Shown piece by piece: positions 8,309-42,911 of a stretch of 59,861 nt of DNA; the stretch's first letter is position 1, and every line of letters begins with the position of its first letter. This stretch comes from Thomasclavelia saccharogumia DSM 17460 (GTDB lineage: Bacteria; Bacillota_I; Bacilli_A; Erysipelotrichales; Coprobacillaceae), in NCBI RefSeq assembly GCF_000686665.1, contig NZ_JMLH01000012.1:1-59861 (forward strand). The letters are read 5' to 3'. The translations under genes were made by a program, and so were the position numbers. The notes below the pieces were generated by a model that made no database searches, was not told where the DNA came from, and saw nothing but the letters and a program-made list of their open reading frames with translations.

Positions 8309-9519
8309 TTTATTCCTTTTTCCATACTGATCTGTCTAAGTGTTTTAGCCATCCGCTTTAAAGCATCGACAACCAAATTGTTATCACGATAAACACCCAA
8401 AACAATTCGTATGTAACCCATACCGCCAGGACCATAATTTATCCCATCATTTACAGCAACTTTTGCTTCACTTACTAACCTTTTACATATAAGTGCACTA
8501 TCACCTAATCTACTAACATCCACCCAGGCTAGAAAACCAGACTCTGGCAATTTCATTTTAACGCCTGGAATATCATTTAATATTTCATAGGCAGCATGTC
8601 GCCTAAAATCATAGGCCTTTTCAAACTCTTCCATAAATTCTGGATGTTTAAAAGCTTCGATTGCTGCAATTTGACTAACCGTATTTGTTGCTCCAATAAC
8701 ACTTACAGCACAGCCATACATTACATCCATAATTTCATCGCTTGCAATAATATATCCAACACGATATCCACTTAATCCCATTCCTTTTGAAATAGAACAA
8801 ACTGTAATCGTGTGCTCAAACATATCTGGTAAACTCATTGGTGCAATAAATTCATTTTTAAAAGTAAAATCTTCAAATGCCTGATCACATACAAGAACTA
8901 AATTGTATTTTAAAACAACGGTCCTAACTGCTTCTAAACTTTCGCGATTATAAATAGTTGTTGTAGGATTATTAGGATGAGTCAAAACAATCATTTTTGT
9001 CTTATCAGTAATCAAAGCTTCTAAAATATCTAAATCAATTTGATAATTATTTTCATCTTTTAGTTCTAAAATCATCGGTGTAGCCTGCATCATCTTAATA
9101 TTTTGTAAATTATTAGGATAACTAGGACAGGGAATGATAACCTCATCATCTCTTTGCAAAAATGGAAACATTGAAAAAAATAATCCACTATCACTTCCTG
9201 GGGTAATAATTATATTACGATCAGGTTTTAATTCCACCCCGTATTTTTCTTTCGCTCTTTTACAAATTATCTCTCTGAGCTCCATATTTCCCGTAGGAGC
9301 TGTATAATGACTAGAAACAGGTGAATGTATAGCTTCTATTGTTTTCTCCATTATTGGCTCAGGAATAGAAAAATCAGGCATAAAAGGATCCGCCCATCCC
9401 ATTAATGCCACCCCATTTTCAGCCATCTTAGTATAACTATCTCCAACATCCGCTTTTTCTACTTCACTAAATAATCCGCCTTCATAGTTTAAAAACTCTT
9501 TTTTCATTTTACTTTTCAT
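8305..9519 (-). CDS. PLP-dependent class I/II aminotransferase
   Basis: A 404-residue fold-type I aminotransferase. The PLP lysine is K245 in SISKGMGLSGYR; N183 in HPNNPTT, D212 and R253 complete the cofactor and carboxylate-binding set. It is related to aspartate/aromatic aminotransferases but the amino acid is not predictable. It is the last gene of the oppBCDFA-peptidase cluster, nine bases after the M24 peptidase, so it may process amino acids released from imported peptides. AGTAGG precedes the chosen ATG; a nearby in-frame ATG five residues in is possible. Confidence 0.87.
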   Translation of the reverse strand: MKSKMKKEFLNYEGGLFSEVEKADVGDSYTKMAENGVALMGWADPFMPDFSIPEPIMEKTIEAIHSPVSSHYTAPTGNMELREIICKRAKEKYGVELKPDRNIIITPGSDSGLFFSMFPFLQRDDEVIIPCPSYPNNLQNIKMMQATPMILELKDENNYQIDLDILEALITDKTKMIVLTHPNNPTTTIYNRESLEAVRTVVLKYNLVLVCDQAFEDFTFKNEFIAPMSLPDMFEHTITVCSISKGMGLSGYRVGYIIASDEIMDVMYGCAVSVIGATNTVSQIAAIEAFKHPEFMEEFEKAYDFRRHAAYEILNDIPGVKMKLPESGFLAWVDVSRLGDSALICKRLVSEAKVAVNDGINYGPGGMGYIRIVLGVYRDNNLVVDALKRMAKTLRQISMEKGIK

Positions 9520-9527
9520 AATTTTAC

Positions 9528-10760
9528 CTACTTTATAAAATATATATTCTTACGACCAGGATATAAATAAATCAATCCTTTTTTAGTAAATGCCACAGTC
9601 TCTTCAGTATAAAAATAATAATCCTGACCAAATACTGTTGCTTTTGTATTCAATTCTAAAGCATACGTTGTATTATATGATATTAAAACATCACCCTTTA
9701 TAGGAATCTCGCTTTGATTATTCCATAAACCAATTGTTGGTCCAGGTCCATGACCATAAATATTACATGGATGCGAATATAAAACAGCCTCAATTCCTTC
9801 ACTTTCAGCCTGTTTTAAAGCTTCTTTTAAAACTTCATTACCGCTTTTATTTTCCGCCATACAATTAGCTACGATGTCTTGAAAACGATTATTGATCTTC
9901 ATCCCTTTCACTAAATCATCAGGTAAACGATCTTCATCATCTCTAGCAATATAAGCTAATCTTTGTGTATCAGTACAAATATTTAAATATTTGATTCCAA
10001 AATCACAATGAAGTAAATCCCCCTTTTCAATAACTCCAAAATATCTAGGATCATCTAGACCAGGTCTTTGCAAATCAACAGTAGGTTCAAACCAATAATC
10101 TAATCCCAAATCCTTAACCTTTTGCATCATTAACCATTGTAGATCCTCACAAGTCGTAGTACCAGGAATAATATTATCTTTACTAAATGCTGTTTCAATA
10201 ATTGAAAATGCAACTTTCATTACTTCAGGATGAAGTTCTAATTCAGTCGGAGTTCTTAATTCCATTAATTTAATTGCCAGCATATCATTACGAACAATCC
10301 GCTCAACATACTTTTTATCCATTTTACTTGTTATCATTTCATATAATCCCTGGGTCAATCCATCACTGAAGGCAAAATTATCAGAGACATTGACAGCTAT
10401 ACTTTGGGGATCAAATTCTTTACACAAACGATTTAAACAGGACATTTGATCTTCATGATTAAAATCTGTCCAATAACTTACATAATATGGCGCTAACTCA
10501 TCACTAGGCATACACAATGAAAAACGATGAATATCATCATTATCCTTTACAAACGCAAATAGTGATATTCGTCTAGCTGTAGGATAATCAGCAGGAGTGA
10601 TTGCATGAAACAAAGGGTCTTCGTTATACTCTTTTGAAGCACTGATCCACATATCAACATTATTTTCTTTCATTACTTGTGGCAAAATAATATCTAAACG
10701 TTCTTTTAAGCAAGTATCTTTAATTTTATACTGCTCTTTTATCGATTTTATTTCAATCAT
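9528..10760 (-). CDS. M24 family metallopeptidase (aminopeptidase P / prolidase-like)
   Basis: A 410-residue protein with a creatinase-like N-terminal domain and a C-terminal pita-bread M24 domain. All five metal ligands are recognisable: D253 (CDFG), D264 (CTDTQR), H337 (GHGPGP), E369 (ALELN) and E387 (TEETV). Such enzymes cleave N-terminal residues before proline or X-Pro dipeptides in the cytoplasm. Placement directly after the peptide transporter suggests breakdown of imported peptides. GGAGGG precedes the ATG. A hairpin between oppA and this gene probably lowers its expression relative to oppA. Confidence 0.85.
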   Translation of the reverse strand: MIEIKSIKEQYKIKDTCLKERLDIILPQVMKENNVDMWISASKEYNEDPLFHAITPADYPTARRISLFAFVKDNDDIHRFSLCMPSDELAPYYVSYWTDFNHEDQMSCLNRLCKEFDPQSIAVNVSDNFAFSDGLTQGLYEMITSKMDKKYVERIVRNDMLAIKLMELRTPTELELHPEVMKVAFSIIETAFSKDNIIPGTTTCEDLQWLMMQKVKDLGLDYWFEPTVDLQRPGLDDPRYFGVIEKGDLLHCDFGIKYLNICTDTQRLAYIARDDEDRLPDDLVKGMKINNRFQDIVANCMAENKSGNEVLKEALKQAESEGIEAVLYSHPCNIYGHGPGPTIGLWNNQSEIPIKGDVLISYNTTYALELNTKATVFGQDYYFYTEETVAFTKKGLIYLYPGRKNIYFIK

Positions 10761-19046: not shown

Positions 19047-19946
19047 ATGAAACGCTGTTTATTTATTATAAATCCTTCATCTGGACAACGTTCTTTACAA
19101 AACAGTTTAGATAAATTAATTGGTCAACTAATTATCAAACAACTAGTAAATCATGTAGATATTTTTTATACCGCTAAAAAAGATGACGGTTACTATAAAG
19201 CATTAAAATGTGATGAAAAAAATTATGATTTTATCGTCGTTGTCGGTGGTGATGGTACAATCAATGAAGTAATAAGTGGAATGGTTGAAAGTCATAAAAC
19301 TATTCCTTTATGTATTTTAGCTGCAGGAACCGTTAATGACTTTGCAAACTATTTAAATTTACCAACCAGCATTAATGATATCTGTGATATGATCAGCAAT
19401 TTCCATACTGTCTGCTGCGATGTTGGTAAAGTTGATAATCATTATTTTATGAATGTAGCTGCTGGCGGAATGTTTAGTGATGTCTCTTTTACAGTTAGTA
19501 AAGCCGATAAAAAAAGACTTGGTCCTTTAGCTTATTACCTTAGTGGATTAACTAATTTACCAAGTCAATTAAATACTAATATTAATCTCAAGATCATCCT
19601 TGATGATGTAAATGTAATTGAAGAAGAAGCTAAAATGTTTATGATTACTAACACTAATCGAGTTGGCGGCTTTGAAAACATTATTCCATTAGCTGATATC
19701 CAAGATGGATTATTAGATTTAATTATTATCAAAAAATGCTCTGTTACCGATTTAGTTGCCCTATCTAAAGATTATATTTTAAAAAAGCACGCTAATAGCC
19801 CATTTATCTCATATTTTCAAGCTAAAAAAATTGAAATATACAGTAAGCAAGAGGTATTGCTCGACATTGATGGTGAACAGGGTTCACCACTTCCAGCAAC
19901 TATTCAAGTTGTTAGTCAAGCCGTTAATATTTTAATTCCAATTTAA
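19047..19946 (+). CDS. diacylglycerol/lipid kinase family protein (YegS/DgkB-like)
   Basis: A 299-residue soluble kinase of the DAGK catalytic family. The nucleotide-binding VVVGGDGTINEV (65-76) and the substrate loop AAGTVNDFANYL are intact. Members phosphorylate diacylglycerol or related lipids to recycle them into phospholipid. It lies four bases after pepT, so the two form one transcript. A short hairpin terminator follows immediately. Confidence 0.88.
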   Translation: MKRCLFIINPSSGQRSLQNSLDKLIGQLIIKQLVNHVDIFYTAKKDDGYYKALKCDEKNYDFIVVVGGDGTINEVISGMVESHKTIPLCILAAGTVNDFANYLNLPTSINDICDMISNFHTVCCDVGKVDNHYFMNVAAGGMFSDVSFTVSKADKKRLGPLAYYLSGLTNLPSQLNTNINLKIILDDVNVIEEEAKMFMITNTNRVGGFENIIPLADIQDGLLDLIIIKKCSVTDLVALSKDYILKKHANSPFISYFQAKKIEIYSKQEVLLDIDGEQGSPLPATIQVVSQAVNILIPI

Positions 19947-19968
19947 GGGGATTTCCCCTTTTTTTATT
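19945..19968. terminator. terminator after lipid kinase gene
   Basis: Short AAGGGGA/TTTCCCCTT hairpin followed by seven T on the plus strand. Confidence 0.7.
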
Positions 19969-20695
19969 TCTTTTTAGCAGAAACTAATAACATCATTGGC
20001 CGTCTCATTTCATCTTTCATCCCAGGAAGTTCAATCATTTCTGATGATGGCTGAGGTTCTATAACATGTTTTAATTCAAAACCTTTTGATAACAAACAAT
20101 TTAAATAAGTAGTTAATGTTCGATGATACTTAATAACCTTTTCGCCAAGAAAAACAGCTTCACGTTTTCCTTCATAATAATAATTATCAACAGGGAAATG
20201 AAGAATATTACCATTTTCATCATAATACCAGTCCTGACTGCCATAACTTGTAAAAACCGGATGTTCGACCGAAAAAACAAATTCACCGTTTTCTTTTAGC
20301 CACATTACAATTTTTTCTACCAATCCTGCAAAATCTTTTATATAATGAAATGCTAATGAACTGATTATAATATCAAATTTATTTTCTGAAAATTCTAAAT
20401 CTTCCATTGCTTGACACCGATACTCGATCTTCGTATCGGCATTTTTTGCTTTAGCTGCTTCTAACATTTTTTTTGAAATATCAACACCTAAAACATAATC
20501 TGCTCCCTGCTTTATGGCATATGCACAATGCCAGCCGTAGCCGCATCCTAGATCAAGGACTGTTTTACCTTTAAAATCAGGTAAAATCTTTTTTAATTCA
20601 TGCCATTCTCCAGCACCTTCTAACCCTTTTTTGGAGCGCTCCATCATTCCATATTTTTTAAAAAACTGTTCATTATCATATTTATTTTCTTTCAT
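19964..20695 (-). CDS. class I SAM-dependent methyltransferase
   Basis: 243 residues with the Rossmann motif I VLDLGCGYG (46-54), motif II acidic GVDIS and a UbiE-like core (EFSENKFDIIISSLAFHYI). The substrate is unknown; similar proteins act on small molecules. GGGAGG sits five bases before the ATG at 20695, which decides the start over an in-frame upstream ATG. Single gene, convergent with the pepT pair. Confidence 0.85.
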   Translation of the reverse strand: MKENKYDNEQFFKKYGMMERSKKGLEGAGEWHELKKILPDFKGKTVLDLGCGYGWHCAYAIKQGADYVLGVDISKKMLEAAKAKNADTKIEYRCQAMEDLEFSENKFDIIISSLAFHYIKDFAGLVEKIVMWLKENGEFVFSVEHPVFTSYGSQDWYYDENGNILHFPVDNYYYEGKREAVFLGEKVIKYHRTLTTYLNCLLSKGFELKHVIEPQPSSEMIELPGMKDEMRRPMMLLVSAKKK

Positions 20696-20811
20696 CTTTT
20701 CCTCCCTTTTCATCTAAACTTCAAGTATATAATATTAAAATGATAATTTGTTATTATCCTAAAATGTTTAATATCACTATAATATCTATTTTAACACTTA
20801 TTTCTTTAAAT

Positions 20812-20852
20812 AAAAACTCTTAAACCAATGACGAAAATCATTAATTTAAGAG
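20812..20852 (-). terminator. terminator after small basic ORF / RADAR-like operon
   Basis: Minus strand CTCTTAAA/TTTAAGAG arms with an inner ATGA/TCAT extension, followed by TTTTTATTT. Confidence 0.75.
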
Positions 20853-20879
20853 CCAATCCTTCTCTAAGTTATTTTAAAA

Positions 20880-21071
20880 TTAAAAAGCCTGCTTCGTTAT
20901 CCTCTTAGAAACCTTTTTTCGCCGTTCCTGCAAGGTAAAATAATCAAGAACATAATCACCTGTAGCAGTATGAACACTTTGTTTTCTTTTATTCAAAGCA
21001 ATATTTTTAGATCTTGAAACATCAATTTTTCGACAACTTTTTTTCGGAGGATTTGTATAAAATCTAGTCAC
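20880..21071 (-). CDS. small basic protein of unknown function
   Basis: 63 residues from a GTG at 21071 that follows AGGAGG at about 10 bases. The protein is rich in Lys and Arg (NPPKKSCRK, NKRKQS, QERRKKVSKR) with no membrane segment. I do not recognise it. A longer frame to 21188 exists but its TTG start has no ribosome site, and a predicted promoter lies inside that extension. It follows the adenosine-deaminase gene of the RADAR-like operon and has its own promoter. It may be an accessory gene of that cassette or an independent small gene. Confidence 0.5.
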   Translation of the reverse strand: MTRFYTNPPKKSCRKIDVSRSKNIALNKRKQSVHTATGDYVLDYFTLQERRKKVSKRITKQAF

Positions 21072-21158
21072 TATTATATTGCCTCCTTCCATTATACTAT
21101 ATGAAATAATTAAAAAATCAATTAATGAATTTGAACTATGCAATCTAAAATCAACAAT

Positions 21159-21188
21159 ATTATAGCATAATTTATTCAATTCGTTCAA
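21159..21188 (-). promoter_or_regulatory. predicted promoter for the small basic ORF
   Basis: Minus strand TTGAAC, 18 bases, TATAAT. A second TATAAT with a weaker -35 lies just before the AGGAGG ribosome site. Confidence 0.45.
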
Positions 21189-21200
21189 TAAATATTCATT

Positions 21201-23873
21201 TTATGAACTTAAAATATTCGCTCTTAGCAACTTTAAAACTTCGATTTCCTGTTTACCACTAGTTTCTACCGTTGATAAAAATGTTGAAAAATTGCTATTT
21301 TTTCTTACAAAATCAAGCCATTCAATGATTTCTTTTTTTGAATAGCCCATGTCTGTAAACTGTGCTTCTAACAGCGCAAATTGGAAAAGTAAATCAGTAT
21401 TAAAAATTGCTGGATCATCCGTATTGATTGTCAATAATACTTGTTTACTATGATCATCATTAAAACCAATTGCATCTAAATTTAAATACGGTAATAATGT
21501 AACATCATCAATATCACCAATCAAACTATTTGATACTGGATTTATTTCTACAATAATACCTTTGTTAGCAACCTTGTTTCTAACATATTTTTGCAATCTA
21601 TCATATAATTCATAATCATCGATATTTTCAACAATCAAAATAGATTCATTCATTTTGTCTATAAAATAACTACAATGATCAGCTACTAATAATTCTTCAA
21701 GCGTCCATCTAAAATCTGCTTTATTTAAACTTTTTTTCTTGCAGGCATATGAAAAATAACAGCACTTTTTACTCATCTTTAGTACTTTTTTATCAATACA
21801 GCTAAAATTATAGTTATACCAGTCAACTAAAACATGGATATCAACTGTATAATCCTCATTTTCTGAATAAATTTCTCTAAAAGTACTTAAAATCTTATCT
21901 CTTAATAAACTCTCGCTAATATTTAATTTTAAATCTTTCTTAGATATCTGAATATAGATCCAAAGCAAATTTTTTAAATAATCGATTTTTTTTATCTGCG
22001 TAACTTTTTTGTCTCGAAGATAGCGTTTTAAATCCAAGGCTAATGCCAAGCCATGACCAATTCGATCGCCTTCCATATAGTTAAAATGTTCTATCACTTC
22101 ATCAACATGTCGTAACCCACTGACAATACTAGAAAAAACCTCTCCGGCATGATATGTAAATCCTAATCTTTTAGCAGGAAAAATGTTATAATTATAGTAT
22201 TTTTCAATTAATTGCGGATTCTGTGATTCTTCTACTATTTCATGATGAGGATTTCTTATTAATCGATACACCGGAGCATAAACATAGGGTTCACAATAAT
22301 GCTCATTTCCAGCAACATCGATTCCAATAATATAATTTTCTAAACCTTCTATATTATTACGTAAATGCTGTAAAGCTATAACATTATTTATTAACTCATA
22401 TTGTAAATAACCATGTTTTAAAAATTTATAATCATTACTTAAAGCAAATTCTTTATAACATATATGACTAACCGGCCTTTTCTTTTTAAACATTACAATA
22501 AAGCCTAATTTCATCGCGCGCCTAGTAATTTCTATTTTTTGATACCATTCAATATGATAATTAACTAACTCCAAAATCTTTTCCTTATAAGCACTAATTA
22601 ATTCATCAAGATTCACACCATGAATATAAGCAATTTTAAGTTCTACGCCTTTGATCTTCTCTTGATGATAATAATGATCAAGAACTAAATTTAATTTATC
22701 TTTTAAACTGATACACTGATTAACATTTGCACGATAAAAATTACTAAAATATGATAATCCTTTAACCTCTTCAGTTTGTACTTTCAAAGCAAAAACACTA
22801 TTTTTCACTCGCAAATAATTAAAAAAACACTGATTAAATAAAGTTTTTTGATACTTATTTTTCTTAATATATTTTATGCAGTGATGAATAAAAATATTTT
22901 CACTTTGATCCTCATTTTTTTTACCAATAAATAAACTAATATAATCGTTATAATTATTATCACAATTATTATAATCATCACGGTGATACATAATTATCTC
23001 CATATCAATATTTTCAATAACCTTATTTATCAAATCCCGATCATCATCATTAAGTTCACCTGAAGCATATTTTGTCAATAAGATATAATCCCTGTCATAA
23101 ACTTCCTGATCAAAAAATATTATTTTCATCAAAATATAACGAACTGCAAGCGATGCTAAAGAAAACAATTCATAATCAAAATAACTGCTTTTGATCTTGT
23201 TAACTTTATTTAATTCACTAAGCGAACGACGAACATCATAATTTAACGGTCTTTTACCTATCATCGCCCACCATTGTAAATTAAAACCAATCGCACCCCC
23301 GAAATGAACATGCGTTTCATAAAAACCTTCTTTAAACACACTACTTTGATAATTGTTTAATACATGAATATGTAATCCCTCATTACTACATATAAAATCT
23401 TCAATAGAAGTAACAAATCTATTTAAATGATTAATAATTACTGGTGTCATTTCCATCCACCTTGAAATATAATACCAGATCAAGATTCTTTGATTTTCAT
23501 TATATGCCGAAAATAAATCTTTTCGATTATTGATATACATCTGATTCAAATATATTTTATAATCCTCAATTCTCAATAAAGACGATCCTAACCTTCCTAA
23601 CAATTCAAAATAAAATTCTGTTAACTGATCACCCTTATCACACTTGATATTTCTAAGCTGGCGTGGAAATATTTTTTCAAGTATTAAAATAAACTCATCC
23701 ATATCCCTAATCGAAATCTCATTTTTTATAATACTAAAAATCACTAAAATAAACTCATCATACGTGATTTCACCATTTAAATATTTTGCATAATAATCAT
23801 CCTTAATAAACCTAAAATGACGATATGGTAATGTAACAATTGCAATTGTCAGTATCAAATTATAAGTATTCAT
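21201..23873 (-). CDS. rdrB: RdrB-like divergent adenosine deaminase of a RADAR-type defence system
   Basis: 890 residues, far longer than housekeeping adenosine deaminases (about 330-350). The metal and catalytic motifs of the family are intact but widely spaced: H188 and H190 (THVHFGG), H575 (YHAGE), H607 (RIGHG) and D819-D820 (NTDDP). Long helical insertions separate them, as described for RdrB. In RADAR, RdrB deaminates adenosine in RNA or ATP with the partner ATPase RdrA when phage infects. It starts five bases after the ATPase gene, so the two are translationally linked. The assignment rests on motif reading and gene pairing, not on a database search. Confidence 0.82.
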   Translation of the reverse strand: MNTYNLILTIAIVTLPYRHFRFIKDDYYAKYLNGEITYDEFILVIFSIIKNEISIRDMDEFILILEKIFPRQLRNIKCDKGDQLTEFYFELLGRLGSSLLRIEDYKIYLNQMYINNRKDLFSAYNENQRILIWYYISRWMEMTPVIINHLNRFVTSIEDFICSNEGLHIHVLNNYQSSVFKEGFYETHVHFGGAIGFNLQWWAMIGKRPLNYDVRRSLSELNKVNKIKSSYFDYELFSLASLAVRYILMKIIFFDQEVYDRDYILLTKYASGELNDDDRDLINKVIENIDMEIIMYHRDDYNNCDNNYNDYISLFIGKKNEDQSENIFIHHCIKYIKKNKYQKTLFNQCFFNYLRVKNSVFALKVQTEEVKGLSYFSNFYRANVNQCISLKDKLNLVLDHYYHQEKIKGVELKIAYIHGVNLDELISAYKEKILELVNYHIEWYQKIEITRRAMKLGFIVMFKKKRPVSHICYKEFALSNDYKFLKHGYLQYELINNVIALQHLRNNIEGLENYIIGIDVAGNEHYCEPYVYAPVYRLIRNPHHEIVEESQNPQLIEKYYNYNIFPAKRLGFTYHAGEVFSSIVSGLRHVDEVIEHFNYMEGDRIGHGLALALDLKRYLRDKKVTQIKKIDYLKNLLWIYIQISKKDLKLNISESLLRDKILSTFREIYSENEDYTVDIHVLVDWYNYNFSCIDKKVLKMSKKCCYFSYACKKKSLNKADFRWTLEELLVADHCSYFIDKMNESILIVENIDDYELYDRLQKYVRNKVANKGIIVEINPVSNSLIGDIDDVTLLPYLNLDAIGFNDDHSKQVLLTINTDDPAIFNTDLLFQFALLEAQFTDMGYSKKEIIEWLDFVRKNSNFSTFLSTVETSGKQEIEVLKLLRANILSS

Positions 23874-23878
23874 AATTA

Positions 23879-26800
23879 TTACAACTCTTTATTAAAAACA
23901 CTTAGTAAATTCAAGAAAAATCTACGTTCTTCATTATCACTGCATACTAGATCATATAAATACAGACTCATGACATAAATAGGAGTTATGTATAACAGTG
24001 CCTGAGCTTTAGCTAGCATTTTATCTCGATCAAAACTATTTTGATCATTTACCAAATTATAAAGGGCTCTTAGCTCCTCCATAATATAATCACAACATTT
24101 ATTTCGTACTACCGTTTCATCACTTAATTTACTAATTAAATTCATTAATTTAGGTCTAAAATTATTCATCCAGTCGTTATTATCAACTACATCATAATAT
24201 ATTTGAACAATAATATTAAATACTTCCTGGCTTAACTCACTACTTTCATCATCCTCTATTTTAAGATAAATATCAGCGTTATTCATAATATTGCTATGGA
24301 TATTTTCAACGTCAACAATATCATAACGATGGTAATTTTCGGCTTCTAAATAGTAATAATCAAAAACTTGTTTAGTTAAAAGATACATTCTTTCAATAAA
24401 TTGTCTTTCATGACCTTCATAATTATCTTTATATTTTTCCACTTTTGTTGCATAAGCATTTATTTGCTGTTTAAAATATAGATCCTCTAGATGATCGATT
24501 CTTGGTGTATCATTATTATTTGAATATTTAGGACGAGTATAATAATCATCGATCATCTTTAAATAAGTGTTACTATTAGAAACTTCGCTATATTCAATAT
24601 TCTTTAATTCAGGAATAAATGTATTAATAATGTTTATAAATGTTCCAATAACATTCATATCATCTCTGCCAAAAAAACGAATCATATTTTCATCATTAAA
24701 TATAAATGTAAACCGTTCTAATAATTGTGATATATCAAAAAGTTTTCTATTTAGTTCTTCACTTACAAATAAATTCTTTATATCGTCAAATACAGGAATA
24801 ATTTGATTTACATAATATTTTTTATATGGGTAAAGACCATTCATCAATGATAAATTATTCTTTATCATCTTTTCCAAATTATTTAACCAGTTATAATTAC
24901 TATTTATATATTTTTTGATCAATAATGAGATTATACTTCTTTCATAATCTGATCTTTTTTTACCATCTTTTTTAATTCCATAACATAACACATCATAAAC
25001 TTCTTTATTAGGGTCACTATCATTTTCTTCATTGAAAATATCACATGCTGCTTTCATAATTTGCACAAAATACTTTTTATCATTATTTTCATTATATAAG
25101 CGAACATTTATATCATAATTGATTACACGATCACCATTGATTGCATTAATGGCTTTCATTGACATTCTTGTGGTAATGTATGAATAAAATAATAAAGTAT
25201 CTTTAATATCAGCATTATCAGGTAAAAATAATGTTATATTTTGATTAAAAGCTCGAACAAATACATGAACAAAAATATTTTTCAACTTATCTCTAACTCT
25301 TTTATAACGTTCATTATAATCATTTTTAAAAAAACAATTCAACAATTCATTCATAAATAAAGGCAAAATAATCAAAGCTTCTATTTCTTCTTTATAATCA
25401 TCACGAAGATACTTTTTATTCTCATTATTTTCAGACTTAATTGCCTCATAATTTTCCTTTATCTTTTCTTCAACAATTTCCTTTAATTCCTCACAGTCAA
25501 TTCTCAATTTATCATAACATTTATCTTCGCCATCTTCATACCTTTTTTCATTTTTAATATATAAATAACGATCAATATTATTCAAATTTTTTCGATACGT
25601 ATTTTTTGAATTCAAAATAATTCCTAAAAATTCCTCAATAAAAATTATTTTATCTTTATTAGTTTGTAGTTTTTGATAATTTTGACGACATAAATATATA
25701 TATACATTCATAAAGCCTCTGACATTAGAACTAAAAGTCGAATAATAAGAATAAATTACAGTATGACCCTTTTTAAAAAAGAAATCTTCATTACCATTAT
25801 CAAGACAAATATTAGCTAATAATTCTTCCATTGTTTTATTTAGCAGGTCACTAGCGTCCCCATTGTTTACGTATGTCAGCTTACTTTTCTTGCGATTATC
25901 CAATGTTTTGATTTCAAAACGATATAATGGCGGTAATACTTTCTTTAAAAAAAACTCACTGCGGCTCTTAGCCATTTCTAAAGCCTGATATTGCTTTTCA
26001 TTTTTTCCAAATGAATATATCTCTTTAATCTCACGATTATCTAGATTTTCCCCCTGTAACATTTTTAATGTTATCGACTGGCAAAAAAGATCATAATCAC
26101 CACTAATAAATGTAACAATATGTGAATGTGATAAAAAAGTTAAAAAATCTTCAAATATCGTTCCACAATATTTTGCTGTCATATCAACATCATCAAAGAA
26201 AAAGAAAATCAACGGTTCTTCTTCATAACCATGTCTTTTATTAATTATTTTTTTATACTCAATCAAATAATCAATCAATGTTCTAAAAGTCTCCACAACA
26301 TCAAAATCCTGGCTTTGAATTTCGGTTGAGCGATTAACATAATCAATAGTATTTTGATACTGTCGATTAATAATATTTTTATAATCAATTTTACGATGCT
26401 GATAATTCTTTTTTAATACATTAAACTGATTTTCAACCTTTTTTTCAATTTCTCGGGTATCATCTTCACGATTCAATAAACAAGCTGCTCTAGTATAACT
26501 TTTTATTTGATCATTATATATTTTTTCCAAAACAACAATTATCCAGCCTAAAATATCACTCGTCTCACTCATGTCATCAGGAACGATCAAAGAAGAAATG
26601 AGATCATAGTCATTAAAAGACATCTTTTTATGATTTTCAGAAAAATACTGATGACTTTCAATTTGTTTGATTATTGTCATCATGATCGATGTTTTTCCCA
26701 AACCGCGACCACCTAAAATAGAAATAAAATTATCATATTTTTCATAAGACAATCTTTTTAATTTAGTATCACTATTTCTAGCATTCTTGCGAAAATCACT

Positions 26801-26905
26801 AATAAAATCTTTAATATTACCAATATTAGGCAACATCAGCTTAACATTCTCTAATTCAAGTTCTCTTGCTCCAATATGATAATTTATTTTTTTAGCGTCA
26901 TTCAT
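23879..26905 (-). CDS. rdrA: RdrA-like P-loop ATPase of a RADAR-type defence system
   Basis: 1008 residues. Walker A is GGRGLGKTS with K71 and Walker B is FFFFDDVDMT with D238-D239; both sit in the N-terminal AAA/STAND-like ATPase region. The remaining about 750 residues are charged and alpha-helical, without recognised domains. Size, N-terminal ATPase and direct pairing with a long adenosine deaminase fit RdrA, which assembles into rings and activates RdrB. It is preceded by a membrane-protein gene (27-base gap) and followed by the deaminase (5-base gap). Confidence 0.82.
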   Translation of the reverse strand: MNDAKKINYHIGARELELENVKLMLPNIGNIKDFISDFRKNARNSDTKLKRLSYEKYDNFISILGGRGLGKTSIMMTIIKQIESHQYFSENHKKMSFNDYDLISSLIVPDDMSETSDILGWIIVVLEKIYNDQIKSYTRAACLLNREDDTREIEKKVENQFNVLKKNYQHRKIDYKNIINRQYQNTIDYVNRSTEIQSQDFDVVETFRTLIDYLIEYKKIINKRHGYEEEPLIFFFFDDVDMTAKYCGTIFEDFLTFLSHSHIVTFISGDYDLFCQSITLKMLQGENLDNREIKEIYSFGKNEKQYQALEMAKSRSEFFLKKVLPPLYRFEIKTLDNRKKSKLTYVNNGDASDLLNKTMEELLANICLDNGNEDFFFKKGHTVIYSYYSTFSSNVRGFMNVYIYLCRQNYQKLQTNKDKIIFIEEFLGIILNSKNTYRKNLNNIDRYLYIKNEKRYEDGEDKCYDKLRIDCEELKEIVEEKIKENYEAIKSENNENKKYLRDDYKEEIEALIILPLFMNELLNCFFKNDYNERYKRVRDKLKNIFVHVFVRAFNQNITLFLPDNADIKDTLLFYSYITTRMSMKAINAINGDRVINYDINVRLYNENNDKKYFVQIMKAACDIFNEENDSDPNKEVYDVLCYGIKKDGKKRSDYERSIISLLIKKYINSNYNWLNNLEKMIKNNLSLMNGLYPYKKYYVNQIIPVFDDIKNLFVSEELNRKLFDISQLLERFTFIFNDENMIRFFGRDDMNVIGTFINIINTFIPELKNIEYSEVSNSNTYLKMIDDYYTRPKYSNNNDTPRIDHLEDLYFKQQINAYATKVEKYKDNYEGHERQFIERMYLLTKQVFDYYYLEAENYHRYDIVDVENIHSNIMNNADIYLKIEDDESSELSQEVFNIIVQIYYDVVDNNDWMNNFRPKLMNLISKLSDETVVRNKCCDYIMEELRALYNLVNDQNSFDRDKMLAKAQALLYITPIYVMSLYLYDLVCSDNEERRFFLNLLSVFNKEL

Positions 26906-26932
26906 TTAATTTTACCTCCCCTTAAAATTATC

Positions 26933-27748
26933 CTACTTCTTATTATCACGTTGTTTATTTTCTAAAAAATCTAAAAAATATGTCAAAACTAAAATTTTTA
27001 ATTTATCAGAAAACATTAAATAGCGATTTTTTAAAACAAAATATCCACTAACACAAATAACGATTGCCATACTATAAATAACATCAAATTTAAAACCACC
27101 GACATTAGTAAACAAATGATAATTAAATACAAGCGCTAAAAATAAACTTACGCCCGATAAATTTTTAGAAAAAGATTTTGATGAATTATAATTATGAACG
27201 CGATTATATTTTTCATTCGTTTGAATCAGCATATAAGAACTAGTACTCATTGATTCAACCGCCTTTTTTAAACCGCTTTCATTTTCAAGATTAAAATTCT
27301 TATCAAAGCCCTCATATAGTTCAACTAAGTATTTATAACATTTCTTAATTAAAATCTTATACTCAATAGTATCATTTCTTTTCTTTACTTTACCTGCCAA
27401 TGATATGAATACGACCCATACGATCAATGAAAATACTAATTTAATATTCTCTATTTTAAATATAAAAAATATAACAGTAATTATACATACAACTAAATAA
27501 AGACAATTTATATTTGTCTTTTTTTCAAAGAAACGATAAATATATTTGATCATTTGCGATAACATCCAGCCCACACAATAACTAAAAACAATAACTAATC
27601 CAAAAACAAACCACTCATTATTTATTTCACTAATAAGATTTTTGATCTCAGCTGGAATGATCGAACAAACACCAGTAAAAACCATTATTCCCGGTACAAT
27701 CGTTGAAACAATATCATATAATGTTATCTTATTAATTATATTTTGCAT
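26933..27748 (-). CDS. membrane accessory protein of RADAR-like operon
   Basis: 271 residues with about four hydrophobic segments in the N-terminal half (roughly 12-32, 46-66, 82-99 and 102-118), a soluble helical middle of about 60 residues, then two more segments near 195-235 and a basic tail. I do not recognise the family. Published RADAR loci sometimes carry an extra membrane protein (SLATT- or Csx27-type); this one occupies the same slot but does not obviously match either. It is the first gene of the operon, so its level sets the stage for RdrA/RdrB. Confidence 0.7.
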   Translation of the reverse strand: MQNIINKITLYDIVSTIVPGIMVFTGVCSIIPAEIKNLISEINNEWFVFGLVIVFSYCVGWMLSQMIKYIYRFFEKKTNINCLYLVVCIITVIFFIFKIENIKLVFSLIVWVVFISLAGKVKKRNDTIEYKILIKKCYKYLVELYEGFDKNFNLENESGLKKAVESMSTSSYMLIQTNEKYNRVHNYNSSKSFSKNLSGVSLFLALVFNYHLFTNVGGFKFDVIYSMAIVICVSGYFVLKNRYLMFSDKLKILVLTYFLDFLENKQRDNKK

Positions 27749-27754
27749 ATCTAA

Positions 27755-27800
27755 CCTTATCTCCCTTCTTTAAAGAGATAACACAAAACTTCTTATCTCC
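27755..27800 (-). promoter_or_regulatory. alternative hairpins at the ribosome site of the RADAR-like operon
   Basis: On the minus strand two GAGATAA copies (27793-27799 and within the GGGAGATAAGG ribosome site at about 27756-27766) flank one TTATCTC (27775-27781). The central TTATCTC can pair with either copy but not both, so one fold would hide the ribosome site of the membrane-protein gene. Confidence 0.4.
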
Positions 27801-27917
27801 AACCCATATTAAAAAAGCTGATTTAATCATATTTATTCAACCATTATAACTAATTATATCTTATCACAGAGCCAAAAATATATAAATATAATTGCAATAA
27901 AAATAATCAAAACAAAT

Positions 27918-27951
27918 AAAAAAAGCCGATGAGATTTCATCGACTATCGGC
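27918..27951 (-). terminator. terminator of the PadR/PspC operon
   Basis: Minus strand GCCGAT...ATCGGC stem with an inner GATGA/TCATC extension followed by seven T. Its 5' arm overlaps the last codons of the pspC-like gene. Confidence 0.8.
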
Positions 27952-28123
27952 GCGGAATTATTATTGCAGCAATAATATATGCCCAAAAACCACTACCACC
28001 TATGGCAAATAAAACAACCCAAGCCAATCTTACCAAAGTTGGATCTAAATCAAAATACTCAGCAATTCCACCACAAACACCACAAATCATTTTTTCTTCA
28101 TCCGAACGATACAAACGTCTCAT
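27944..28123 (-). CDS. PspC domain protein
   Basis: A 59-residue protein, too short for most gene finders. It starts MRRLYRSDEEKMICGVCGG and continues IAEYFDLDPTLVRL, the PspC signature, then one membrane helix (AWVVLFAIGGSGFWAYIIAA). GGAGG precedes the ATG. It starts three bases after the DUF4097 gene and is the last gene of the PadR operon. PspC-domain proteins sense or relieve envelope stress in many Firmicutes. Confidence 0.88.
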   Translation of the reverse strand: MRRLYRSDEEKMICGVCGGIAEYFDLDPTLVRLAWVVLFAIGGSGFWAYIIAAIIIPRR

Positions 28124-36104: not shown

Positions 36105-39100
36105 TTACAATTTATTTATACTTCTTTTTTTACTTTTATAAAATATTATCGAAGCTAATGCTAACCCTGCAAACAAATATATTATATTTGTTGCATCACC
36201 AGTATCTACTGCCACTATTGTATCTCCTGCATTTACCGCTGTATTAGTATCTACTTCATTAGCTATTAGTCCAGCAATCGCTTTTGTTAAAACATCCTTG
36301 GCATTATCTACCTGTTCTTGACTTGCTTCTGGATCTTCTAATACTGCTTTGGCTTCATTTAAAGCATCTGTTACTACTGCCCATGACTCAGCACTATAAT
36401 TAGCACTATTCAACGCTTCTGCCTGATTGATTAGTTCCTGTAATAAATCTTTATTTGGTTTTAATCTTAAATTTAAGAAGGCTTTGACTAATTTGACAAA
36501 TACTTCATCGACTTCAGCCTGCATTGCATTTTCGTCGGCTAAAACTGCATTTGCTTTATCCAATACTGGTAACATTGCCTGCCATGATGATTCGATATAT
36601 TTACTTTCATCTAAAGCATTGATATCATCTACTTGTTTTTGTAATGCTGTTTTATCACCTTGATAGAATTCCAACATCTGCATTACATTTGCTAGTCGAT
36701 CAAAAGCACTATCTACTTCAACTTGTGTAGCTTTTTCATTACTATATACTTCTTTAGCGTTTGTTAAAGCTTCATTAAATTCAGTTACTACGGCTGGTAC
36801 AACATTTTCTAAATCAGCTTTTTCCGCCATTTCAATAGCAATTTGTAAAGCTAATTTATCAGTTTCAACAATATTTTTAAATACTGGATAATTATTTTCA
36901 CCACTTATCCATGCACAATATTCAGTATCTAAATTAGCATTCAATTCGTTTAATAATGTTCCATCTGTAAACTGATTAAGATTTAAGCTATTTAAATCTT
37001 CAAAATTATTTGTATTTCCAAAACCAGCCTTACCACTTTCATAATAAATATTTTGATAAGTAACTTGATATGATTCACCTGCAACAGATTCATCATATCC
37101 GGCCACTACACCACTAAATCGAGGTGCTGTTACATCAGCTTTAACATAACAATTCTTAATGATAGTTGGTGTGTTAGGATCAATACTGCGATTAGCTGCA
37201 CCAACTAAACCACCTGCTGTTTCTACTGTTCCTACTACTTCACTCCATGCATAACAATTAACCATCGTTGAATTATTAAACATTCCGACGATTCCACCTG
37301 TATCATTGCTGCCGCTAACATTAGCTTCAACACCACAATTTATAATTGTCGCATACATCGTTCGTCCAACTAATCCGCCAACTTTAGCTTTACCAATTAT
37401 ATCAGCATTTCTGAGCTCAACATTTTTAATCGTTCCGCGTTCTAATAAACCAATCAATCCAACATTTTCTCCTTGTGGCTGATTTATCGTTAAATTAGAA
37501 ATCGTATGTCCATCACCATCAAAAACACCATTGAATACAGCTGCTGGTGTATATTTATAATTTTGCATATCTAAATCATTAGTTAATTTAAAATATGATT
37601 GCATCTTTTCCCCACTATTGATTTCACTTGCAAACAATAATAATTCTTTTTCTGAGTTAATTAAATATGGATTCTCAACAGTTCCTGCACCTGTAAATTC
37701 ATATTCTAAAGATGAATCAAGATTCTGATTATATTTATTTCCAATTGTTAAATTATCTAAATAACCATTAATACCGTTAAACATTTTATTTGCTGGTAAA
37801 TATGATGTTGCTGAATGTGATGAAACACTCGCAGGTCCTTCAATTAAAGTAGGATTATAAGTAATACCATCAATTTTTAATAATGTTGTTGCATTAACAC
37901 CATGAATATATGTACTTGTTAAAGTAATATTTAACCATTCATCTAGTGGTAAATCAACATTGTATGTATAAATATATTTACCAACTTTAAAACTAACGCC
38001 ATTATTTTGATAATTCAAATAGAACGTACAAAAATCATCAGTAAATAACACAGCATCATCACTTTGTGTGCCATTTAAATATAAATCAAAATTGACTGTA
38101 TAAGGATAACCAACACTTGCAAACGGTAAAGAAAGATTACTTTGTGGTTTAAGCTGTAATACTTTTCCATTAAGATATCCTTCATTCATTGTTGCAAGAT
38201 CAGCAGCTTGTACTTGAGCATCATAACTATTTTCTAGATCACTAATTTTCAGATCAGTCATTTCTTCAAAATCATATTTAGCGATAATACTTGAATTTGT
38301 AGCCACATACTTTCTTGGATTAGCACCAGGGGCATAGTCACCAACTTGTTCAAATGCTGCTACAAAATCATTGCCGCTTTCAAAACGATCATCATCACCA
38401 TACCAGCTCTTTTCACTAATTACACCGATATAAGATAAAACGAGATCCAAAACATCAAAATCATTAGCCCAAGAACGATCATTCCAATTACAGAAAAGCG
38501 TTCCAATGATTTGCGGATTTCCCCGTAACAAATCATATTGAGCATAATAATTACGTGAAGCTATATAAGTCGGATTACCAATTCGATGGGTATCAAAATC
38601 ACTGCATCCTCTCCATGTATCATAGAAAGTTGCCATATCTACATAACCATTATGCAGACCATTACTATTACCTGGAATCAAATACATGCTATTAGAAGTT
38701 GAATTGATGATTTCAAAACCATCTGCTAAAGCTTGTTCAACCCGCTGATCAGCAGAATCCCAAATTTGATTAACAACATTCTTAGAATCAATTTCATTAG
38801 CCCCATAATAAACAGAAAGATTACCCCAAAAATAGACCTTATCAATATTATCTTTTGATAGACAATATTGAGCTAAATCATTAATGTAACGACGCATATT
38901 TTCGTTTGTATTAGATGATTCATCAGTTCCAATATGAACAGCAGCACTTTGGAATACCGGATCATCACCATCTAAAAATTCATCAAAAACACTACTGATC
39001 AAATCTAAACATTCATCGTAGTGATTACTTAAATCAAAATTAGAGCCGTTAACTATTTCTGGATCAATTAAATTAAAAATCGTTGCATGTCCAGGTGAAT

Positions 39101-42100
39101 CAATTTCAGTAATAACATTAACACCAAATTGTTTCAAGTTCTTTTGCATCTGACGATAATCATCTTGTGACCATACATAATTGCCATTTTCTAAATTATA
39201 TGTATTCAAGACCGGATATTTTTTACTTTCTACTACAAATGAAGAACTATACTCGCCACCAAGTCCACTATCTTCATTAATATGAAGATGGAATGTATTC
39301 ATTTTAAACCAGGCCATATATTTACCCATCTCTTCAATGTAATCTAAATCAAAATAACGTCTAGCCACATCAAGCATTCCACCACGAACAGAATATTGTG
39401 GATAATCACGAATAATTCCCATTGGAATTGTATTATGATCTTCATCTTGATATAAAATCTGAGCAATAGAAACGCCACCATAAAGCATTCCCGTATCACT
39501 AGGTGCACTAATTACAACCTGGTCACCAATATTAATATAGTATCCTTCATCACCTAGTTCATTTAATTTATCTGGTGTATATTTAATAACGATATCACCA
39601 CTTACAGAGGCACCTTCGCTTACTTCTAATGTTACTCCTATCATTTCAGTTAAATACATTTGCAGCATTTTGGCACTTGTTTTTGCCATTTGATCTTCAT
39701 AAATGATCCGAGCTCCGTTTTCAAGTTTAAAATCACCATCTAAACCATACCATTCTTGAAGACCAGGAACAACATTTGGCATTTTATTAGTACCTGTATC
39801 ACTATATTTACCAGTAACTGTAACTGTTATATTACGATCAAGCTGGCATACTATTTCATTGCTCAAAGTATCTAAAATATTATAAATCAAATATACTTTT
39901 TGCTTTGTTAAAGGCTGATAAACATGGCCATTTAAATCAACAACTTGTTCATTACTTGAACCAAATAATACAGCTTGATAGCGATTATCATCTGATTTTG
40001 GTAAAACTAACTGATCATCTATAATTTCAGGCTCATTTTTAATACCAGCCATAAACTTTTCTAATTCATTAGCATCATCAAAAATAGCTAATCTCGCTAC
40101 ATTATCTGTTCCTAATTTCCATTCACTATAATTTTCTTGACGATATTGATTCAATGTATCAACAAAACTTTGACTCATCATCTCAGTTTTTTTCATTCCT
40201 GTAATAGTTGAAACTGTGACAAGATTTCCAATTGCAACATCAGGTAAATTTTCTTGATTGTAATAAAGATGATCATAATTTGCAAGATTGTCATCTTGTT
40301 CAATAAAGCCGCCTATTTTACCTGAATAAGTTCCCCAATGAACTCGTCCTAAATTATAAGAATTAATTATATTTGCTGCTACTGTTGGATTAAGACTACG
40401 ACAAATAGAACCTGCCAAACCACCTAATGATTTAGAACCACTGACAACACCATTATTGTAGCTGTTTAAAAGATCAGAATTATTTAACATTCCTACGATT
40501 CCACCAACATCTTCAAAACCTTTTATCGTTGCATTGTTATAACAATTTAAAATCGTTGCCTGCATACTTCGCCCAATCAATGCTCCAACTTTATATCCAC
40601 CTTCAACTTTACCACTATCAATTCCCAGGTTTTTAATTGTGCCTCCTTCAACTTGATGGAATAATCCAATATTTTGGCCATTATCTACTTTAATATTAAT
40701 ATTTTTGATAACATGTCCATCACCATCAAAAGTTCCTTTAAAAGGAATAATAGAGCTAAAACCATTAAATTCAATTCCTTTCAAATCAAGATTTGCTTTT
40801 AACTGATAATAAGCTGTTGAAAATTCCGTGGCTATATTAACGACCCTTTCCATTTCCTTTAAATCATCAACCGTCTTGATCAAATAAGGATCCTCTAAAC
40901 TACCATGTCCTGATAAAGTCGTTTTAATAAAAACCTTTCCTCTAAATCCCGGATATCCACTGTTATCTTCAAGCCATGTAAAATAATCAGCAGCTAAATT
41001 ATTATTTAATTTTATAATCAAATCACCATTACTAAATTCTTCTAAATCAATTGGAATCAAACCAGTACGATTATTGTTATTTCCAATAGCTATTTGACTC
41101 TGTTCATAATAAAGATTACTCATGGTAATTTGATAATTATCACTAACCGCGCCTTCATCATAACCAGCAATAACTCCTACATGCTGATCACCACTAACAA
41201 CAGCACGACTATAACAATTATCTATAGTTGCCATAAACTCTGGATCAATACTACGATTAGCACTTCCAACAATGCCGCCAACAGTTATTTTACCACTAAT
41301 ATTTCCCCAAACATAACAATTTAACATCGTCGAATTATTAAACATTCCAACTATTCCACCGGTATCATTAGCACCTTCAACATTGGCTTTAGAATAACAA
41401 TTTAAAATCGTTGCCTGCATTGTTTTTCCCACTAAAGCGCCAGTGTGATTACCGCCAATAACAGTTCCACTTTCAATTCCAAGGTTTTTAATTGTTCCAC
41501 CATCTAAAAAACCTATTAAACCTACATTTTCTAAATCAGGTTTATTGATATTTAGATTCAAAAGACAATACTGATCACCATCTAAAACCCCACTAAAACG
41601 AGTAATCGGCTGAAAATCAATTTCATTCATATCAATATCACTAGTTAATTTATAATAAGCATCACCATATAATGCATCATCATTAATGATTTGTGACATT
41701 AATACTAGATCTTCAGGAGTTTTGATTAAATATGGAACATCTTTAGTCCCTTGCCCGATCAAACCACATTCAGACATACCATCATTAAATTCTGGATATC
41801 CTAGTGCACCTTTGACCCATGGACTATATTCTTCTTCACAGCCACTGTTTAAAGCTTCTAGTAAACGTCCATCTTGAAAAGCAGCTGTCTCTATACCGTT
41901 TACACCTGAATGACTGCTATTACCAATTCCTGTTACCGAACTATCATAATAAATACTACTCATGGTAATTTCATAACTAGCTCCAGCAACACTTTCATCA
42001 TAACCAATTGCACTACCTGCATATTGTTGACCAGTAACTGTAGCTAAACTGTAACAATTTTTTAACACTGTTGGTGTTGCCGGATCAATACTGCGATTAG

Positions 42101-42698
42101 CACCACCAACTATTCCCCCAGCTGTTACTCCACTACTATTTATTTCTCCCCAAACATAACAATTTAACATCGTGGAATTATTAAACATCCCAACTATTCC
42201 ACCAACATCATTTTTCCCGTTTACATCTGCTTTACTGTAACAATTAATGATATTTGCATACATCGTTCTTCCAACAAGAGCACCAGTTCTATTGCCACCA
42301 GTAATCACACCGCTTTCAATTCCTAAATTTTTTACTGTTCCCCCATTTAAAAAGCTAATCAATCCAATCTGATCACCAGTACTATTGATTACTAAATTAG
42401 AAATTGCATAACCACTTCCATCAAGAACCCCAGAAAAACCGCTTGTACTTCCGATCGGTGCAAAATCAATTTCTGTCATATCAATATTTGTTGTCAATTT
42501 ATAATGAGCATTTAAATAACCATCTCCATTATTTACAAGTGAAGACATTTTAATTAAGTCTTCTTTCGAACTAATTAAATACGGATCATCATTAGTTCCC
42601 TTACCCTCAAGATCATTATCTTCACCATGGACAACATAAATTGATATAGAAGCAAAAATAATGAATGTACTTAAAATAATTTTAATTATTTTTTTCAT
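36105..42698 (-). CDS. giant GH20 hexosaminidase surface protein with GLUG and FIVAR repeats
   Basis: 2197 residues. The start at 42698 follows AAAGGAGG. Order: signal peptide (about 1-30); three GLUG-repeat blocks (about 36-320, 320-596, 596-890) built from units such as GGIVGMFNNSTMLNCYVWG; GH20b (about 990-1075); GH20 catalytic domain (about 1090-1430) with D1259-E1260 in VHIGTDES; LamG-like domain (about 1475-1650); a fourth GLUG block (about 1670-1935); a helical module plus FIVAR repeats (about 1940-2150); then VDTGD, a hydrophobic helix and KSKKRSINKL. It should be a cell-surface exo-hexosaminidase acting on host or dietary GlcNAc/GalNAc glycans. It is controlled by the RAT leader at 42791-42892. 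Confidence 0.92.
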   Translation of the reverse strand: MKKIIKIILSTFIIFASISIYVVHGEDNDLEGKGTNDDPYLISSKEDLIKMSSLVNNGDGYLNAHYKLTTNIDMTEIDFAPIGSTSGFSGVLDGSGYAISNLVINSTGDQIGLISFLNGGTVKNLGIESGVITGGNRTGALVGRTMYANIINCYSKADVNGKNDVGGIVGMFNNSTMLNCYVWGEINSSGVTAGGIVGGANRSIDPATPTVLKNCYSLATVTGQQYAGSAIGYDESVAGASYEITMSSIYYDSSVTGIGNSSHSGVNGIETAAFQDGRLLEALNSGCEEEYSPWVKGALGYPEFNDGMSECGLIGQGTKDVPYLIKTPEDLVLMSQIINDDALYGDAYYKLTSDIDMNEIDFQPITRFSGVLDGDQYCLLNLNINKPDLENVGLIGFLDGGTIKNLGIESGTVIGGNHTGALVGKTMQATILNCYSKANVEGANDTGGIVGMFNNSTMLNCYVWGNISGKITVGGIVGSANRSIDPEFMATIDNCYSRAVVSGDQHVGVIAGYDEGAVSDNYQITMSNLYYEQSQIAIGNNNNRTGLIPIDLEEFSNGDLIIKLNNNLAADYFTWLEDNSGYPGFRGKVFIKTTLSGHGSLEDPYLIKTVDDLKEMERVVNIATEFSTAYYQLKANLDLKGIEFNGFSSIIPFKGTFDGDGHVIKNINIKVDNGQNIGLFHQVEGGTIKNLGIDSGKVEGGYKVGALIGRSMQATILNCYNNATIKGFEDVGGIVGMLNNSDLLNSYNNGVVSGSKSLGGLAGSICRSLNPTVAANIINSYNLGRVHWGTYSGKIGGFIEQDDNLANYDHLYYNQENLPDVAIGNLVTVSTITGMKKTEMMSQSFVDTLNQYRQENYSEWKLGTDNVARLAIFDDANELEKFMAGIKNEPEIIDDQLVLPKSDDNRYQAVLFGSSNEQVVDLNGHVYQPLTKQKVYLIYNILDTLSNEIVCQLDRNITVTVTGKYSDTGTNKMPNVVPGLQEWYGLDGDFKLENGARIIYEDQMAKTSAKMLQMYLTEMIGVTLEVSEGASVSGDIVIKYTPDKLNELGDEGYYINIGDQVVISAPSDTGMLYGGVSIAQILYQDEDHNTIPMGIIRDYPQYSVRGGMLDVARRYFDLDYIEEMGKYMAWFKMNTFHLHINEDSGLGGEYSSSFVVESKKYPVLNTYNLENGNYVWSQDDYRQMQKNLKQFGVNVITEIDSPGHATIFNLIDPEIVNGSNFDLSNHYDECLDLISSVFDEFLDGDDPVFQSAAVHIGTDESSNTNENMRRYINDLAQYCLSKDNIDKVYFWGNLSVYYGANEIDSKNVVNQIWDSADQRVEQALADGFEIINSTSNSMYLIPGNSNGLHNGYVDMATFYDTWRGCSDFDTHRIGNPTYIASRNYYAQYDLLRGNPQIIGTLFCNWNDRSWANDFDVLDLVLSYIGVISEKSWYGDDDRFESGNDFVAAFEQVGDYAPGANPRKYVATNSSIIAKYDFEEMTDLKISDLENSYDAQVQAADLATMNEGYLNGKVLQLKPQSNLSLPFASVGYPYTVNFDLYLNGTQSDDAVLFTDDFCTFYLNYQNNGVSFKVGKYIYTYNVDLPLDEWLNITLTSTYIHGVNATTLLKIDGITYNPTLIEGPASVSSHSATSYLPANKMFNGINGYLDNLTIGNKYNQNLDSSLEYEFTGAGTVENPYLINSEKELLLFASEINSGEKMQSYFKLTNDLDMQNYKYTPAAVFNGVFDGDGHTISNLTINQPQGENVGLIGLLERGTIKNVELRNADIIGKAKVGGLVGRTMYATIINCGVEANVSGSNDTGGIVGMFNNSTMVNCYAWSEVVGTVETAGGLVGAANRSIDPNTPTIIKNCYVKADVTAPRFSGVVAGYDESVAGESYQVTYQNIYYESGKAGFGNTNNFEDLNSLNLNQFTDGTLLNELNANLDTEYCAWISGENNYPVFKNIVETDKLALQIAIEMAEKADLENVVPAVVTEFNEALTNAKEVYSNEKATQVEVDSAFDRLANVMQMLEFYQGDKTALQKQVDDINALDESKYIESSWQAMLPVLDKANAVLADENAMQAEVDEVFVKLVKAFLNLRLKPNKDLLQELINQAEALNSANYSAESWAVVTDALNEAKAVLEDPEASQEQVDNAKDVLTKAIAGLIANEVDTNTAVNAGDTIVAVDTGDATNIIYLFAGLALASIIFYKSKKRSINKL
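36890..37690 (-). repeat. GLUG repeat block 4 (after the catalytic domain)
   Basis: Protein-level copy of the N-terminal GLUG blocks, containing the same GGIVGMFNNSTM unit, displaced by more than 3 kb to the far side of the GH20 domain. Confidence 0.7.
40030..42590 (-). repeat. three tandem GLUG blocks of about 0.85 kb
   Basis: Each block starts with a DPYLI-type segment and contains the same run of GLUG units. The DNA encoding NNSTMLNCYVWG recurs near 42165 and 41320, with a more diverged copy (NNSDLLNSYNNG) near 40470, a spacing of about 850 bases. Confidence 0.75.
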
Positions 42699-42736
42699 TT
42701 CTATCCTCCTTTCATACATCCATTAAGTTTTATTTC

Positions 42737-42744
42737 ACCTCCTC
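42737..42744 (-). promoter_or_regulatory. orphan Shine-Dalgarno-like AGGAGGTG in the GH20 leader
   Basis: The minus strand has AGGAGGTGAAATAAAA about 40 bases before the true start. The only nearby ATG opens a three-codon frame (Met-Asp-Val-stop). The same GGAGGTGAAATAAAA string occurs in the leader of the GH105 gene. Confidence 0.35.
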
Positions 42745-42790
42745 TTTTTTTATTTATTATTAAAACAGTGATTTACTGTTAATAATCAAA

Positions 42791-42833
42791 AATTAAAAGG
42801 CAAGACTAAAAACATTTAGTTTCTGGTCTTGCC
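42791..42833 (-). terminator. leader terminator overlapping RAT2
   Basis: Minus strand GGCAAGAC/GTCTTGCC arms followed by TTTTAATTTTT; the 5' arm is shared with the RAT element. Confidence 0.78.
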
Positions 42834-42851
42834 TAATTAAAGTAACAATCC
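42825..42851 (-). promoter_or_regulatory. RAT antiterminator of the giant GH20 gene
   Basis: Minus strand GGATTGTTACT, then TTAATTAGGCAAGACC: the same sequence as the RAT near 4873-4902 apart from a three-base shorter loop. It starts about six bases after the predicted transcription start. Confidence 0.8.
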
Positions 42852-42863
42852 TCTATTACTTTA

Positions 42864-42892
42864 ATTATAATTTCTATTAATTAAATTGTCTA
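42864..42892 (-). promoter_or_regulatory. predicted promoter of the giant GH20 gene
   Basis: Minus strand TAGACA (42887-42892), 17 bases, TATAAT (42864-42869). The -35 box lies inside the 30-bp palindrome at 42877-42906. Confidence 0.7.
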
Positions 42893-42906
42893 GACAATTT
42901 AATTAA
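42877..42906. promoter_or_regulatory. perfect 30-bp palindrome: terminator of the GH105 gene and/or operator
   Basis: TTAATTAAATTGTC and its complement with a central TTGTCTAGACAA. It starts six bases after the stop codon of the upstream gene and covers the -35 box of the next promoter. The core is close to the HutC/GntR-type TGGTCTAGACCA operator of DasR/NagR. Confidence 0.5.
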
Positions 42907-42911
42907 TTACA

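Follow-up and report, generated by a model that had tools for sequence, protein, structure and literature searches.

The locus considered here lies on a stretch of 59,861 nucleotides from Thomasclavelia saccharogumia DSM 17460 (hereafter the window) and raises the question of whether a P-loop ATPase gene and a large deaminase gene, preceded by a membrane-protein gene, represent a Firmicutes variant of the RADAR anti-phage system, as the original prediction held, and whether the membrane protein is an accessory of a new type. In characterized RADAR systems, infection is sensed by RdrA, which stimulates the conversion of ATP and dATP to ITP and dITP by RdrB (PMC9994260). The coordinates, lengths and order predicted for the three genes were all correct upon re-examination, and a fourth gene, encoding a small protein of 63 residues, had been overlooked. 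The features of the locus are as follows:

26933-27748, minus strand: membrane-protein gene, 271 residues, first gene of the operon
23879-26905, minus strand: rdrA-like AAA+ ATPase gene, 1008 residues (sequence profiles)
21201-23873, minus strand: rdrB-like adenosine deaminase gene, 890 residues (sequence profiles and conserved catalytic residues)
20883-21071, minus strand: small basic protein gene, 63 residues, with a GTG start and an AAGGAGG ribosome site
21159-21188, minus strand: extended -10 promoter-like site before the 63-residue gene, TTGAAC-18-TATAAT with TG (consensus match only)
20815-20854, minus strand: intrinsic-terminator-like hairpin at the end of the locus (consensus match only)
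27924-27945, minus strand: intrinsic-terminator-like hairpin of the gene upstream of the operon (consensus match only)
19941-27953, no strand: segment of approximately 8.0 kb that a sister species lacks at this position (flank alignment)

The ATPase and deaminase genes lie five bases apart, as had been noted, and the membrane-protein and ATPase genes are separated by 27 bp. The scan returned sites in about the same number as in shuffled sequence; because the hairpin at 27924-27945 would terminate the preceding gene, the operon is likely a transcription unit of its own. Alignment of the flanks with a sister species (G035) reveals an empty site there that is shorter by approximately 8.0 kb, and in another species (G037) an invertase gene occupies the same position. 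This segment, with a G+C content of 26% compared with 31% around it, contains the operon, the 63-residue gene and a methyltransferase gene (19964-20713), the last of which was rejected as a member of the system because its relatives occur elsewhere in the genus and not beside the other operon copies. No defence island was found around the window copy, whose neighbors are housekeeping genes. All genes are under purifying selection in comparison with the nearest relative, VE202-01 (dN/dS 0.03-0.18), the values for the three operon genes being 0.18, 0.06-0.15 and 0.08. Further along the window, on the minus strand at 36105-46262, two very large surface-type proteins of 2204 and 1116 residues are built of repeated modules, and a fragment related to them is located at 59466-59804.

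For the 890-residue protein, RdrB is the best family both in NCBIfam (NF041744, E=2.6e-40) and in PADLOC (2.5e-22), with an NCBIfam score of 138.7 bits that is far under the curated equivalog cut-off of 800. A phmmer search against the PDB returned E. coli RdrB as the sole match (8fnw, 7.7e-12), and a profile built from four deaminase sequences matched the E. coli RdrB structures at 8e-25, whereas the top-scoring ordinary adenosine deaminase reached 1e-5. An ungapped match over approximately residues 571-607 places H575, E578 and H607 on H498, E501 and H530 of the E. coli enzyme (numbering of PMC9994260). The adenosine deaminase motifs, described beforehand as intact but widely spaced, are indeed so: H188, H190, H575, E578, H607 and D819 are identical in 13 of 13 aligned RdrBs, D820 is kept in 11 of 13 (Asn in the second copy of the same genome and in one Lachnospiraceae protein), and the wide spacing corresponds to the known RdrB insertion pattern. 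No CARF domain is present in this protein. By its profile matches and catalytic residues, the deaminase is a diverged RdrB, in agreement with the original assignment. In the RdrB tree the four sequences of the Thomasclavelia family cluster together (support 98/96). RdrB is scarce: of 392 phylum genomes searched, 4 have it; in a second phylum sample of 299 genomes, strong matches were obtained in one genome and short, weak ones in six others.

The 1008-residue ATPase carries both of the predicted motifs, a Walker A with K71 (GGRGLGKTS) and a Walker B with D238-D239 (FFFFDDVD), the two aspartates being invariant in four homologues and aligned to the Walker B of E. coli RdrA. D270 would be a sensor-1-like and R396 a sensor-2-like residue, a correspondence drawn from the spacing given in PMC9994260. 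The NCBIfam and PADLOC RdrA models do not match this protein. An hmmsearch of the PDB with a profile of four ATPase homologues nevertheless retrieved E. coli RdrA (8hr7, E=5e-6) over residues 51-284, from Walker A to sensor 1, and hhalign against seven RdrAs (annotated as such, library-detected, or adjoining an RdrB) gave a probability of 98.8 and a score of 146 over 244 columns covering the AAA+ domain, compared with scores of 28-33 and probabilities of at most 11% for ClpB, PtuA-like, STAND and OppD controls. The AlphaFold model has a mean pLDDT of 39.3, from a thin alignment of five rows, and of the C-terminal lobe only its helical content could be seen. On the strength of the profile searches, with homology established over the AAA+ domain only, and of its co-localization with rdrB, the protein is an RdrA, as had been proposed. 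Current RdrA models thus overlook whole branches, and RADAR is probably under-counted.

The arrangement of membrane protein, RdrA and RdrB is found in five operons from four genomes of one family: the window, a second contig of the same genome (C74), VE202-01, G042 and Massilimicrobiota timonensis An13, the last assigned to Erysipelotrichaceae by NCBI. The C74 operon (L003 2132-8524) encodes proteins of 280, 936 and 911 residues in the same order, with 45% identity to the window for the membrane protein, 33% for RdrA and 28% for RdrB. In VE202-01 (L013 9433-15113) both rdrA and rdrB contain a frameshift in a draft assembly, for which decay and sequencing error are both possible explanations, and in An13 the operon is broken between the ends of two contigs. 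Within the genus the distribution is patchy (three of nine genomes). The enzyme pair recurs in all four genomes; the window copy lies among housekeeping genes, the C74 operon is followed by a Cap12-like TIR gene (9285-10187) and the G042 operon adjoins a Septu/PDC-M62-like pair. Searches of plasmids yielded six relatives of the deaminase, one of the ATPase and none of the membrane protein; viral contigs and phage records yielded no relatives.

Two other RADAR loci were encountered during the survey. A Lachnospiraceae metagenome-assembled genome (JAJQFO010000061.1; L019 1544-11674) harbors a RADAR-like locus in which two different large RdrB-type deaminases flank one RdrA-type ATPase, a 399-residue protein being encoded in the interval that separates the ATPase from the first deaminase. 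Plasmid pAT1 of Aureibacter tunicatorum (L059 4556-10882) carries a RADAR system with a SLATT-domain protein directly 3' of rdrB; the annotation of both rdrA and rdrB there is hypothetical protein.

The 271-residue protein had been described as having six helices, which is plausible by Kyte-Doolittle analysis: five helices pass the cut-off, and a sixth passes in one homologue. A search of 395 genomes from the class gave five full-length matches; each belongs to a RADAR-carrying genome of this one family and lies beside RADAR or its own duplicate, either before rdrA or, in the case of An13, as a tandem pair preceding it. In that genome (contig 28; L016 5650-7600) two paralogues that are 28% identical lie upstream of rdrA. 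Since the same gene order recurs in five operons, the membrane gene appears to be a real third component. A separate history for this gene (45% identity to C74 versus 39% to An13) was considered and dropped, as co-inheritance fits the unrooted tree.

RADAR accompanied by Csx27 or by SLATT proteins has already been described (PMC7699616). Library searches did not find a SLATT domain in the 271-residue protein, and hhalign to the Aureibacter SLATT protein gave 0.2%. NCBIfam Csx27 did not match it up to E=1, and one homologue matches PADLOC Csx27 at 3e-4 over its first 50 residues. Its N-terminal 71-78 columns, comprising two transmembrane helices, align to a 214-residue Csx27-like protein of a related genome with an hhalign probability of 94-96 and a score of 50-57; this reference does not lie beside RADAR and is itself a weak Csx27 (NCBIfam 6.6e-6, score 26, against a cut-off of 65 bits). 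When the halves were aligned separately, the N-terminal one scored 50.5 compared with at most 18.8-19 for shuffled sequences, and eight real proteins, mostly membrane proteins, scored at most 24.7 against the full-length profile. The C-terminal half scored 19.59, which equals the background (the best of 100 shuffles reached 19.58), and homology over the full length was not found. Relative to the reference, the protein has an additional transmembrane pair between the N-terminal module and the C-terminal end. Sub-threshold PDB and Pfam matches, including thrombin, were rejected as noise, and the AlphaFold model has a pLDDT of 38.9 from a two-row alignment. By these alignments the first ~78 residues are homologous to Csx27, and the protein is an accessory that is related to Csx27 and includes new parts. 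The suggestion that it may be a new accessory type is thereby borne out for its constant company with this RADAR clade, its additional transmembrane pair and its unmatched C-terminal two thirds, and not for its N-terminal module, which belongs to an accessory already published with RADAR (PMC7699616). What is new here consists of that additional pair, those C-terminal two thirds, the tandem duplication in one genome and the adjacent 63-residue gene.

The 63-residue protein contains 17 Lys/Arg and 4 Asp/Glu residues, and its gene, located 3' of rdrB, has a strong ribosome site. In a search of 43 family genomes, every clear match adjoins an operon of the window's subtype (window, VE202-01 and An13), and the gene is absent beside the C74/G042 subtype; one further weak match contains stops and is likely due to chance. 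Its VE202-01 counterpart is 98% identical (dN/dS 0.03), and the one in An13 shares 29% identity. With three occurrences, the tie between this gene and the operon subtype is suggestive. The gene is a concrete new candidate regulator.

Taken together, the locus is very probably a diverged anti-phage operon of the RADAR type, inserted in the chromosome, with a mechanism that would follow that of its homologues, and the original view of a Firmicutes RADAR variant is upheld by profiles, catalytic residues and repeated co-localization. The variant is probably of the published Csx27-associated kind, with which it was compared by description. By homology, RdrA would form a ring-shaped ATPase sensing infection and docking on the RdrB shell, while RdrB would deaminate ATP and dATP to ITP and dITP, such that phage replication is starved or poisoned. 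The likeliest guess for the membrane protein is that it anchors RdrA/RdrB at the inner membrane or couples their activation to it, and constitutive regulation is a possible role of the basic protein, whose gene has a promoter-like site of its own. It can be speculated, as a rather unlikely extension, that this is a four-part RADAR in which the membrane protein, made of a Csx27-like hairpin and a new domain, recruits or gates RdrA/RdrB at the membrane or is a second, membrane-damaging effector, and in which the separately transcribed 63-residue protein silences the system in healthy cells.

The most serious alternative is that the membrane protein is a plain diverged Csx27 (RdrC) and the locus an ordinary Csx27-associated RADAR with nothing new, to which we give about an even chance. 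The N-terminal alignment, well above shuffled and membrane-protein controls, the PADLOC match of one homologue and the published Csx27-RADAR subtype (PMC7699616) all speak for it, but the C-terminal halves align no better than background, the protein has ~six helices in 271 residues where a Csx27 of ~214 residues has three to four, and the NCBIfam family fails to match the window protein while matching the reference itself weakly. How Csx27 acts is itself described differently, as repression of Cas13b in type VI-B1 (PMC8209922) or as augmentation of immunity (PMC12669027) in two reviews, and the accounts of Csx27-like proteins and of the membrane accessory in RADAR are unsettled; a family that is never without the membrane gene, and in which one genome has two independent copies and a second genome a tandem duplicate, offers a good test bed.

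The substrate of the enzymes could also be other than mononucleotides, such as RNA that is edited, as proposed in the original report on RADAR (PMC7699616), or a nucleotide used in signalling, and the membrane protein would then be a killing effector in the manner of the type VI-B accessory Csx28, a membrane pore according to work cited in PMC12669027. This is improbable, as the RdrB active site matches residue for residue that of the characterized enzyme, for which deamination of ATP was seen in vitro (PMC9994260), and Csx28 and Csx27 are different families. Least credible of all is that the genes serve housekeeping purine metabolism, with the ATPase as an associated factor, and have no role in defence: the neighbors of the window copy would fit such a role, but the operon is present in only a third of the genus genomes, its site is empty in the sister species, the two copies in one genome share low identity, other copies have defence neighbors, and the partner ATPase has a RADAR-specific profile.

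The diverged RADAR operon can be set against several known systems. Cad1, a CARF-fused deaminase that makes ITP in defence (PMC11645235), has an adenosine deaminase domain in common with the enzyme described here, which differs in having no CARF domain and in having RdrB insertions and an RdrA partner. With Csx27-associated RADAR (rdrABC), likened here by its published description, and with the Csx27 of type VI-B CRISPR, the locus has in common a membrane accessory whose N-terminal two-helix module is homologous and whose gene shares its operon with rdrA and rdrB. Csx27 proteins have ~200-220 residues, whereas the members described here have 270-310 residues, with an added middle transmembrane pair and a soluble part and last transmembrane pair without demonstrable homology. 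The nearest relative outside the family is the RADAR of a Cetobacterium somerae plasmid (NZ_CP092520), whose RdrB is 27% identical over 96% and groups with the RdrBs of the family (support 100/99), whose RdrA is ~26-32% identical, and which has no adjoining membrane gene. With the characterized RADAR systems of E. coli, C. rodentium and S. suis (PDB 8FNT-8FNW and 8HR7-8HRC), the operon shares an AAA+ ATPase adjoining a large adenosine deaminase with wide insertions, the same zinc and catalytic residues, a patchy and rare distribution, and an rdrA followed directly by rdrB, the order encountered in all five operons of the family. It differs from them in an RdrA too diverged for the available models, an RdrB far below the curated cut-off, an upstream membrane gene in five of five operons and, in one subtype, the 63-residue gene.
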